64,000 nucleotides of DNA from positions 1 through 64,000 of the forward strand of contig DUBS01000033.1 of assembly GCA_012960225.1 (NCBI GenBank), given 5' to 3'. Both the position numbers and the translations under genes were made by a program. Positions 4,644-44,918 of this stretch are shown piece after piece (position 1 is the stretch's first letter; each line of letters starts with the position of its first letter). The DNA is from Gemmatimonadota bacterium. GTDB taxonomy: Bacteria > Gemmatimonadota > Gemmatimonadetes > Longimicrobiales > Gaopeijiaceae. Below the pieces are notes generated by a model. It was not told the origin of the DNA and searched no databases. It saw nothing but the letters and a program-made list of their open reading frames with translations.

Positions 4644-4659
4644 CTTTCCTCGTGTACAG

Positions 4660-4732
4660 AGCGGGAGACCGGACTCGAACCGGCGACAACCACGTTGGCA
4701 ACGTGGAGCTCTACCAACTGAGCTACTCCCGC
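4660..4732 (-). tRNA. tRNA-Gly (GCC)
   Basis: A 73-base cloverleaf on the minus strand. The acceptor stem is GCGGGAG/CTCCCGC, the D arm is GCTCAGTTGGTAGAGC, and the anticodon loop TTGCCAA carries GCC. The T arm is GCCGG-TTCGAGT-CCGGT. The discriminator base is U, normal for Gly. CCA is not encoded. Confidence 0.97.
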
Positions 4733-4890
4733 ATCTATAGTAGTCACGAAGCTAGAATATACGATTTTAGCGGTCAATGCTCCTATGCCCTTCTAACGTG
4801 AGTTCCTCCGTTGCGTATAAACCCTTATGTTTCGCGGTCAATCGGGGCTTTGCTGCCTTCTGGCGCTCTCGCCCACTAACATGGACCTGA

Positions 4891-41870: not shown

Positions 41871-42827
41871 TCACACCGTCGCAGGCTGCGGCCTCTTCTT
41901 CTTCTCACCGACCCTTCCCAACCCCCAACGATTCTGGATTTCAATCAGCGCTGGAGAAGCAACGAAAATCGAGGAGTAGGTACCGATGATCACACCCAAA
42001 ATAAGTACCACAGTGAAATCAAAGATCACGGGACCGCCAAGAACAAGGAGCGCTAAGAGCACTGCCAGAGTCGTACCAGATGTGAGGACTGTACGCGGGA
42101 GAGTCTCATTAATCGATTGGTTGACTAGGTCAACTGGATTACGCTTCCGCGCACCCTTCGTATGCATGTTCTCACGAATGCGGTCAAAGACCACAATCGT
42201 GTCATTTAAAGAATATCCCAGGATAGTGAGGATCGCCGCGACGGTAGGTAATGCAATCTCGACATGAAAAGCAGCGAGAAAGCCGAGGGTGATCAGTATA
42301 TCGTGCAGTGTAGCGATCACCGCTGCCATACCAAAGCGAAGCTCGAAGCGGATGGCCAGATAAATGAGGGTAAGCAGGAATGAGAAGAGAATCGCATACA
42401 AAGCTTTCAATTGCAGTTCTCCCCCTACCTTAGCACCGACCTGTTCAGTCCGGACCACCTCGAAGGCGTCCTGACCAAAAGCAGCCGCGAGTTGCGCTTC
42501 AATAGTATCAGCAACCGCACCTATTGATCCGTCCTCCGCTACAGGGGCTCGCACAACAAATTCGCTCTCTTCACCGAAGCGTGTGATCGGCGGCGAATCT
42601 GCCCCACCGAGCGCATCACGAAGATCCCCAGCAGTCAGGTTCTCATCCACCTGGATTTGGATCAGTGATCCGCCTGTAAAATCAACTCCATAGTTCTGCC
42701 AGCTTCCAGTGTTCACGACATTTAAGGTCATAAACACAATGCCTACCCCTAGGGCTATGCCGGAAGCAAAGTATGCCTTACGTCGAGCCTCAATGAACCT
42801 GTAGGATGCGTTATGAAAGAGTCGCAT
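41871..42827 (-). CDS. secF: protein translocase subunit SecF
   Basis: A 318-residue inner-membrane protein with six membrane segments. VDFTGGSLIQIQV (about 49-61) starts the periplasmic domain, and the conserved GYSLNDTIVVFDRIREN (about 205-221) lies in the membrane core. SecDF uses the proton gradient to help pull secreted proteins out. The start has AAGGAAAGG upstream, 9 bases after the secD stop. Confidence 0.97.
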   Translation of the reverse strand: MRLFHNASYRFIEARRKAYFASGIALGVGIVFMTLNVVNTGSWQNYGVDFTGGSLIQIQVDENLTAGDLRDALGGADSPPITRFGEESEFVVRAPVAEDGSIGAVADTIEAQLAAAFGQDAFEVVRTEQVGAKVGGELQLKALYAILFSFLLTLIYLAIRFELRFGMAAVIATLHDILITLGFLAAFHVEIALPTVAAILTILGYSLNDTIVVFDRIRENMHTKGARKRNPVDLVNQSINETLPRTVLTSGTTLAVLLALLVLGGPVIFDFTVVLILGVIIGTYSSIFVASPALIEIQNRWGLGRVGEKKKRPQPATV

Positions 42828-42836
42828 CGCCTTTCC

Positions 42837-44468
42837 TTAGACGCTAATCGGGTCAGACGCTTTCTTCCCCTGCAGATACAGGAGGAAGAAGGAGCGCGTA
42901 ACAAACAGGGCGGAGAAAAACGATGCAACGATGCCGATTGAGAGCGTTACTGCAAAACCACGTACAGGGCCAGTCCCGAATTGGAAAAGGATTAGAGCCG
43001 TGATAAGCGTGGTCAAGTTTGCGTCCACGATGGCGGATTTTGCGTGTTGGAAACCCTCTTCTACCGCGGTTCTGGTTGCCCGACCAACAGCTAACTCCTC
43101 ACGGATCCTCTCAAAGATTAGGACGTTGGCATCCACAGCCATCCCAACTGAAAGGATTAGGCCGGCTATACCTGGAACCGTTAGCACCGCGCCTAAAGTT
43201 GCAAGGCCACCAAGCACAAGTACCACGTAGACCCCCAGAGCTCCCACAGCCAGCATCCCGGCGACCCGGTAATAAGTCAGCATCACAAGCACGACCAAGG
43301 CAATCCCCAGCATCCCGGCGATTTTCCCAGCGTCGACAGAGTCTTGGCCCAATGACGGCCCAACAGTTCTCTCTTCTATAATGTTGATCTTCGCAGGCAG
43401 TGCTCCAGCTCGTAGGACGAGCGCTAGATCGGAAGCTTCCTCAAGCGGTGTCCCAGAACCCATATCGATCTGACCACGGGCACCAATCCGGTCTCGGATA
43501 ACAGGTGCACTCTGGACCAGACCATCGAGCACAATGGCAAGATTATCCCCAATATGCTGGCCCGTGAACTGCCCAAAAGTCCGCCCACCGGCGCGACTAA
43601 GTTCAAACTGAACCTGTGATTGATTGAACTGAGGATCACGGCCCGCGGTTGCCGTTTCTAATCTATCTCCCGTTAGGAATGGGTCTTCCTCAAGTACCCA
43701 TAAATATTTATAGGTACGGGCGCCTCGGCCCACGAGCTCCATACCCCATTGTAGAGCTTGGTCACGAGGCAACGCGCGCTGTACCTCGTCCATGGCGAGG
43801 AATAATTCAACTGTCGGTATATCTTCAAGGGCGATGAGGTACGTTCCCGGGATGTCGCCCATATTGAGCTTCGATGAGAATGGCTGGAAGCTATCGAGCG
43901 GGTCTTCTTCCTCTGGTGCCTCTTCGACGACTCCAGCGGTGTCGACTTGCTCTGCAGTCACTGTCGTGTCCCCACCACCAAACAGGAGATCTACAATCTC
44001 CGATTGTTCCGAGGCGACCACGTCCGCTCCCAAAGCTCTAATCGAATCGATCCCAAGTGCCGCCACGACGCTTCGGTCGATCCTGCTCAACGCGGCCGTC
44101 ATGTCGGTCGTCAGCAAAACGAGTTTGAATTCAAGGAAAGCGTTTCGCTGAACGATCTCTTTTGCGCGATCTTGGTCTGAGATCCCGGCAAGCTCAACAA
44201 TTAACCGCTCACCCCCAACCTTCTGGATAAGCGGTTCTTCCACACCAAATTCGTCGATGCGCGTCCGAATGATACGATCGACCCTATCGATCATGTCGGC
44301 CTTAGCCTCAACCGTCATGGTTTCCTCAGGGTCATCTACCTCCAGCACCAAGTGCATACCACCCTGGAGATCAAGCCCGAGCTTAAGGCCTTCACTATAT
44401 AGCTGCCAGCCAAATATCCCGGTTATTAGAATAATCAGGATAAGCCGGCTTCGTGGTGTCTTGAACAT
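42837..44468 (-). CDS. secD: protein translocase subunit SecD
   Basis: A 543-residue SecD. One N-terminal membrane segment and LGLDLQGGMHLVLEV (about 31-45) lead to the large periplasmic P1 domain (about 60-350). Five more membrane segments follow with GMAVDANVLIFERIREE near 465-481. An acidic insert (about 175-195, EEAPEEEDP) lies in P1. No yajC precedes it. The only weak Shine-Dalgarno and an intrinsic terminator 20 bases upstream of the start suggest regulation in the leader. First gene of a run reaching at least uppP. Confidence 0.96.
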   Translation of the reverse strand: MFKTPRSRLILIILITGIFGWQLYSEGLKLGLDLQGGMHLVLEVDDPEETMTVEAKADMIDRVDRIIRTRIDEFGVEEPLIQKVGGERLIVELAGISDQDRAKEIVQRNAFLEFKLVLLTTDMTAALSRIDRSVVAALGIDSIRALGADVVASEQSEIVDLLFGGGDTTVTAEQVDTAGVVEEAPEEEDPLDSFQPFSSKLNMGDIPGTYLIALEDIPTVELFLAMDEVQRALPRDQALQWGMELVGRGARTYKYLWVLEEDPFLTGDRLETATAGRDPQFNQSQVQFELSRAGGRTFGQFTGQHIGDNLAIVLDGLVQSAPVIRDRIGARGQIDMGSGTPLEEASDLALVLRAGALPAKINIIEERTVGPSLGQDSVDAGKIAGMLGIALVVLVMLTYYRVAGMLAVGALGVYVVLVLGGLATLGAVLTVPGIAGLILSVGMAVDANVLIFERIREELAVGRATRTAVEEGFQHAKSAIVDANLTTLITALILFQFGTGPVRGFAVTLSIGIVASFFSALFVTRSFFLLYLQGKKASDPISV

Positions 44469-44487
44469 GCATTACCGCGGGCTCAAG

Positions 44488-44508
44488 AAAATGGCCCCTC
44501 ATGGGGCC
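44488..44508 (-). terminator. intrinsic terminator just upstream of secD
   Basis: On the minus strand GGCCCC-ATGA-GGGGCC is followed by ATTTTC, and a GCGGTCAG-A-CTGACCGC hairpin lies just before it (44512-44528). It ends 20 bases before the secD ATG, in the same direction. It must either end a small RNA made upstream or attenuate secD, since the next gene upstream is divergent. Confidence 0.7.
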
Positions 44509-44740
44509 TTTGCGGTCAGTCTGACCGCGTCTAGACGAGCCGTAAAGCTGCCGATGGTGTCCGAATGTGTCAATCGGAGCTGGGGTGCCCTCTTTCCCGG
44601 AAAATGCAAAGTCAGGAACGGGAACAGGATCCTGACGAGAGCACCCAAGCGGGGCAAGTCTACTGCTTAGAGGCCCTTGGGAAGCTCTCTCAATTCACCC
44701 CTATCTAGGAGATCTGTGGGGTCATTGTATGACTTATAAC
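44488..44740 (-). ncRNA. candidate structured RNA or attenuated leader upstream of secD
   Basis: This non-coding minus-strand region contains a chain of stem-loops. ACCCC..ATCT/AGAT..GGGGT comes first. An extended hairpin with GAGAGC/GCTCTC and CCCAAG/CTTGGG follows, then GTCAGGA/TCCTGAC, GCTCCGAT/ATCGG(C)AGC and GCGGTCAG/CTGACCGC, ending in the terminator at 44488-44508. GGGTGCTCTC can instead pair with GAGGGCACCC over 10 bp (44583-44592 with 44637-44646), which excludes the GAGAGC/GCTCTC pairing. A TATAAT at 44743-44748 sits in a very AT-rich tract upstream. It may be a stand-alone RNA or a switch controlling secDF. It matches no RNA family I recognise, and I saw no leader peptide with a signal sequence. 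Confidence 0.45.
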
Positions 44741-44800
44741 CTATTATATATCAATAGCTTATACATCTATATATACAGTATATTCTTATATCTGTGATAT
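44725..44800. promoter_or_regulatory. AT-rich divergent promoter region
   Basis: About 75 bases of nearly pure A/T, in sharp contrast to the rest of the window, lie between the minus-strand structured region and the plus-strand deacylase gene. It holds a minus-strand TATAAT (44743-44748) and a palindrome ATATAC-A-GTATAT. It probably contains promoters in both directions, but no good -35 was found. Confidence 0.45.
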
Positions 44801-44918
44801 GCCATCCCTCTCAGTGTTTTTCAGAGATCGAATACCAGTCACCCAGAATAACATGAGGGTAGCGGGACGCTACTTGAGACGACACCTTGGGCATTCAACG
44901 CACTCATGGAGGAAAGAG

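Follow-up and report, generated by a model that had tools for sequence, protein, structure and literature searches.

Candidate cis-acting RNA leader with covarying hairpins upstream of secDF in one lineage of Gemmatimonadota

In Vibrio, secD2F2 is controlled in cis by translation arrest on VemP, a secreted arrest peptide encoded upstream (PMC11470409, PMC5449182). In the papers that we found, RNA-level control of secDF is described as arrest peptides such as VemP, and our literature search returned no paper on secD leaders in Gemmatimonadota. Here we describe a short leader in front of secD and secF that resembles VemP–secD2F2 in its predicted cis control of the two genes from an upstream position, but in which RNA hairpins stand in the place of a peptide and no leader ORF is conserved. 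Its layout, namely a promoter, a short untranslated leader, a GC hairpin with a U tract, and then the gene, is also that of the general class of attenuator leaders built on intrinsic terminators, although no conserved antiterminator and no leader peptide were found here and termination is predicted only. A covarying terminator-type secD leader, present as a single copy and in one lineage, would be another route of secDF control.

The locus belongs to Gemmatimonadota bacterium GCA_012960225.1 (Longimicrobiales, Gaopeijiaceae) and lies in a stretch of 64,000 nt of contig DUBS01000033.1, which was analyzed as a whole and is called the window below; secD, secF, and the leader elements all lie on its minus strand. 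The secD gene (42837–44468) matches TIGR01129 (secD) with 423 bits against a cut-off of 244, and secF (41871–42827) matches TIGR00966 (transloc_SecF) with 284 bits against a cut-off of 160 (NCBIfam). The secD ATG is at 44468 and the gene 5′ of secD is a divergent amidohydrolase, a divergent neighbor having already been noted in an earlier, sequence-only reading of this DNA. That reading had called one structured RNA at 44488–44740, either a new cis-acting switch or a stand-alone small RNA, with a terminator shortly before secD. The minus-strand motifs that it named are present (GGGTGCTCTC at 44646–44637 and GAGGGCACCC at 44592–44583), and so is the terminator shape, a hairpin GGCCCCATGAGGGGCC-ATTTTCTT at 44508–44485 that ends about 16–20 nt 5′ of the ATG. 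What our analysis retained is a 3′ leader of about 70 nt with covariation, hence a cis-acting structured leader in kind; the single 250-nt RNA did not hold, its 5′ part folding as expected by chance, and the small RNA appears less likely.

The predicted secD promoter (44575–44543) is composed of GATTGACAC (TTG at 44573–44571) and CAGCTTTA (44550–44543), which together follow a TTG-N20-nAnnTTT pattern of the Bacteroidetes type. All 22 loci of the initial comparison carry TTGACAC 5′ of secD, and 18 of them share an invariant GATTGACAC and an invariant CAnnTTT at a distance of 16 nt. In a phylum-wide Gemmatimonadota search, which gave 99 distinct secD upstream regions, TTG-N19..21-nAnnTT occurred in 86, versus 0.6 in dinucleotide shuffles, with spacings of 20–21, or at the widest 19–22, only. 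The same test was positive for 27/28 secG and 5/20 tmRNA upstream regions, and the spacing peaks at 20 in the secD, secG, and tmRNA sets. The secG promoter in the relatives (L096–L125), GTTGACACC-N-GACGTTTA, is very conserved (27/28). In the window itself, TTGAC-N..-TAGCTT lies at 4749–4777 (minus strand), about 17 nt 5′ of a tRNA-Gly gene (4659–4732, minus strand), and this putative tRNA-Gly promoter is independent support for the promoter consensus in Gemmatimonadota. Elsewhere in the genome, the pattern precedes tRNA-Met as well as genes resembling rpsL and purA, the latter two recognized by eye from their first residues.

Bacteroidetes sigma-ABfr promoters carry TTTG at −33 and TAnnTTTG at −7 (PMC7366714). 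The TTG-N20-nAnnTTT found here before secD, secG, tmRNA, and tRNAs is similar, but the −33 box is GATTGACAC instead of TTTG and the −7 box opens with G or C before secG and secD and with T before tmRNA. Taken together, the predicted secD promoter is a Bacteroidetes-type housekeeping promoter that points into secD. Our literature search found no mapped promoters for Gemmatimonadota, and TTG-N20-nAnnTTT should be a usable promoter consensus for this phylum; it is not novel in kind, being Bacteroidetes-like. A Sec-specific sigma factor had been considered because the initial pattern, among plausible genes, returned secD and secG alone; it was rejected since a relaxed version also stands in front of tRNA-Gly, tRNA-Met and, as judged by eye, purA and rpsL.

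Based on the distance between the −7 box and the start in Bacteroides (PMC7366714), transcription would begin within 44541–44536, which would leave a 5′ UTR of about 68–73 nt. With the promoter at 44575–44543, only sequence downstream of ~44541 belongs to the conserved transcript. The conserved promoter is not the TATAAT tract pointed out in the sequence-only reading; it lies inside the region called as RNA. The putative first transcribed bases, GGCT(G/T) (44541–44536), are a conserved feature 5′ of secD in much of the phylum, whether or not hairpins follow; start-site context and a GC-rich discriminator are possible causes.

Two hairpins lie downstream of this start zone. Hairpin A (44512–44528) reads GCGGTCA-GAC-TGACCGC. 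Hairpin B (44493–44508) is a terminator-type stem, GGCCCC-ATGA-GGGGCC, with six GC pairs and a loop of 4, and it is directly followed by the U tract ATTTTCTT (TTTTCTT at 44485–44491), which is only moderately strong in the window genus. A terminator scan returned hairpin B and its U tract (44508–44485) as the sole terminator-like site in the region. The U tract is T-rich in most members of the clade and interrupted in L013, L134 (=L015), L160, and L025, that is, in about 4 of the 20 hairpin-bearing species. Immediately 3′ lies a conserved element (44479–44487) that reads CTTGAGCCC here and CG(T/C)(T/C)GAACCC elsewhere. The sequence TTTTCGTYGAACC is essentially single copy per genome, with 10 of its 12 matches in 16 genomes located at secD; the two copies not before secD are in L238 (G158:C16) and L240 (G003:C40:115677).

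Nearly every genus has its own hairpin A letters, such as GCGGTC/GACCGC, CGGGGA/TCCCCG, TGCGGG/CCCGCA, and ACGGCG/CGCCGT. Misalignment of hairpin A left RNAalifold on a plain MAFFT alignment with hardly any structure, and this approach was replaced by per-species z-scores and by arm-anchored counting. The first of these tests is independent of any chosen alignment and free of own-fold bias. The segment containing hairpin A has a mean z of −2.09 in 20 species (Stouffer −9.3, with species treated as independent) versus −0.15 for a control segment of these species located 5′ of the −35; the z-scores of L131, L138, L144, L025, and L026 are individually not significant. All six counted pairs of hairpin A are changed on both sides, and 92% of its cells are paired. 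The stem of hairpin A is therefore under clear selection, with unrelated letters across about 20 species. Hairpin B is more uniform: its stem reads GGCCC/GGGCC, which in three species becomes AGCCC/GGGCT. A C-G to G-C change also occurs at pair 6, and two of the six pairs of B are doubly changed among 19 leaders.

For the leader as a whole, 19 distinct sequences with their arms in register gave 90.8% paired cells versus 68.9% in shuffles, a percentage that is biased upward because the fold of each individual sequence supplied its arms, with N substituted for the loops. Doubly changed cells numbered 48 versus 17.3 in shuffles, and the covariation score of the whole structure was 0.571 versus 0.181 in shuffled and at most 0.143 in slid versions. 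No Rfam family matched the region or any of 16 related loci at the gathering threshold. The leader is thus, as far as can be judged from comparative evidence, a real, covarying, short (~70 nt) element of a known general kind without an Rfam entry. An asX1 match (20.7 bits against a threshold of 70) was attributed to chance, as were other weak matches. The 6S, tmRNA, and RNase P RNAs had been named beforehand as possible matches for this non-coding strip, but none was matched by Rfam here; 6S RNA had no match in the region or the genome, and tmRNA and RNase P RNA are located elsewhere in the same genome.

A terminator-like hairpin was detected in 22 of the 99 secD leaders versus 3.9 expected, and 16 of these are in the lineage nearest the window. 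On the SecD tree, the two-hairpin state requires two changes, a value as low as this being reached in 0 of 500 shuffles, and outside the lineage the promoter is followed in most of the phylum by short leaders without hairpins. The predicted two-hairpin leader is therefore lineage-specific: it was found in roughly two dozen genomes sampled from a single lineage, and most of the hairpin-bearing genomes are metagenome assemblies. In three more distant family members, L166, L200, and L204, the secD leader contains a GC hairpin that differs from this one and is accompanied by a U tract; these may be independent gains of a terminator-like leader.

Our preferred reading, to which we give about an even chance, is that of a lineage-specific cis-acting secDF leader whose most likely role is transcription attenuation. 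The housekeeping promoter at 44575–44543 would start the secD–secF mRNA at about 44541–44536, and the first 70 nt would run from hairpin A through hairpin B and the U tract, which have the anatomy of an intrinsic terminator, and on through a conserved CGTTGAACCC-type segment to the start of secD. The promoter, hairpin B (44508–44493), and the ATG stand in this order, which is kept in relatives, and no second promoter fits between hairpin B and secD; consequently, all secD transcripts from the conserved promoter pass the terminator shape. Hairpin B would then stop a fraction of the transcripts at a length of about 50 nt and in this way set or regulate SecDF output. That hairpin B really terminates is suggested by its anatomy, and this termination may in turn be regulated.

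It is also possible, although somewhat unlikely in our judgment, that hairpins A and B act on the finished mRNA, through protection of the 5′ end or through opening and closing of the start-codon region, and affect secD translation or mRNA life without termination. Indeed, both hairpins persist in the species in which the U tract is broken (L013, L134, L160, and L025). With the tract interrupted in about 4 of 20 hairpin-bearing species, termination cannot account for the entire function throughout this set, and the retention of both hairpins despite a poor U tract speaks for at least some action on the mRNA. The conserved unpaired CGTTGAACCC between hairpin B and the AUG, 3′ of the U tract and thus in the read-through RNA, points in the same direction, as does the location of the AUG within a predicted helix (44459–44488, TCTTGAGC/GTTCAAGA) that is strong in the window genus (−11.7 kcal/mol). 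However, this start-codon helix is mostly at −2 to −6 kcal/mol elsewhere, where T-to-C changes break its pairs, and we rejected it as a conserved element. Moreover, most leaders keep a terminator-grade U tract right after hairpin B, which would be needless for a pure stability hairpin.

An unregulated role for hairpin B, either as a constitutive partial terminator that lowers SecDF output or as an insulator that stops upstream transcripts, seems improbable to us. The terminator shape without a conserved competing structure and the lack of a leader peptide would fit such a role, and the upstream gene has the same direction as secD in many relatives. However, an insulator is expected upstream of the promoter and not between promoter and gene, and hairpin A, whose stem lacks its own U tract yet is under clear selection, would be left unexplained.

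Within the attenuator reading, how the stop at hairpin B might be controlled was approached through searches for competing structures and leader peptides. Pairing of the 5′ GGCU with the 5′ arm of hairpin B (4–8 bp) gave a mean z of −1.07 against shuffles and −0.35 against the targets of other species; this pairing is strong only in L013 and L130, and is best in L013. A conserved antiterminator is thus unsupported, because the match within a species is no better than the match between species. Factor-dependent attenuators need no competing structure. No leader ORF with a signal sequence was found on the minus strand between 44800 and 44468, in agreement with the lack of a VemP-type leader peptide that had been reported for this region, and no leader ORF is conserved; L128 and L129 lack the ATG that lies in the hairpin B loop. 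A protein-free RNA switch, in which hairpin A and the 5′ end would control the stop at hairpin B and one Gemmatimonadota lineage would tune export by attenuation without an arrest peptide, is a doubtful refinement in our estimate.

We consider it quite improbable that the secD promoter produces an independent small RNA, about 50 nt long and ended by hairpin B, that acts in trans. The anatomy of a promoter with an intrinsic terminator is compatible with such a product, and small RNAs derived from 5′ UTRs exist in Bacteroides (PMC7366714). However, the terminated part has no conserved unpaired seed except for the initial GGCTG, which is also present in hairpin-less leaders, and the letters of hairpin A vary freely while those past the U tract are conserved. 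Since the conserved unpaired letters sit past the U tract and the terminated part has none beyond its first bases, a cis-acting leader is likelier than a small RNA.

The weakest of the alternatives, a single 250-nt structured RNA that starts at the TATAAT tract and contains mutually exclusive helices, is largely refuted and very improbable. The whole 253-nt stretch is more stable than its shuffles (z −3.58), but this value arises because the excess stability sits in the last 70 nt: the segment 44470–44540 by itself has a z of −3.51, whereas 44580–44729 folds no better than chance (z −0.83) and the matching 5′ stretch in the congeners L007 and L008 (SecD identity to the window 96% and 95%) has z-scores of +1.47 and +0.61. 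The GGGTGCTCTC arm is absent in these two closest relatives. The arm GGGTGCTCTCGTCAGGATCC, needed for both the long helix and its alternative, does not occur in L007 or L008, and these two genomes also lack the letters on which the proposed GGGCC antiterminator depends. In a third congener, L009, the interval 44600–44855 including the AT-rich tract is missing, and with it the whole 5′ part of the proposed RNA. The 250-nt structure of the sequence-only reading is thus mostly chance. Because of the chance-level fold and the loss in congeners, the 5′ two thirds (44583–44740) are best described as a genus-specific spacer upstream of the promoter and not as a conserved RNA.

In L009, the divergent amidohydrolase region abuts the secD promoter region, with the junction around L009 1322–1369. 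The AT-rich tract at 44730–44800, between the amidohydrolase gene and secD, is kept in L007 and L008 only; its conservation there was the other point in favor of the longer RNA, and the tract may hold the promoter of the divergent gene.
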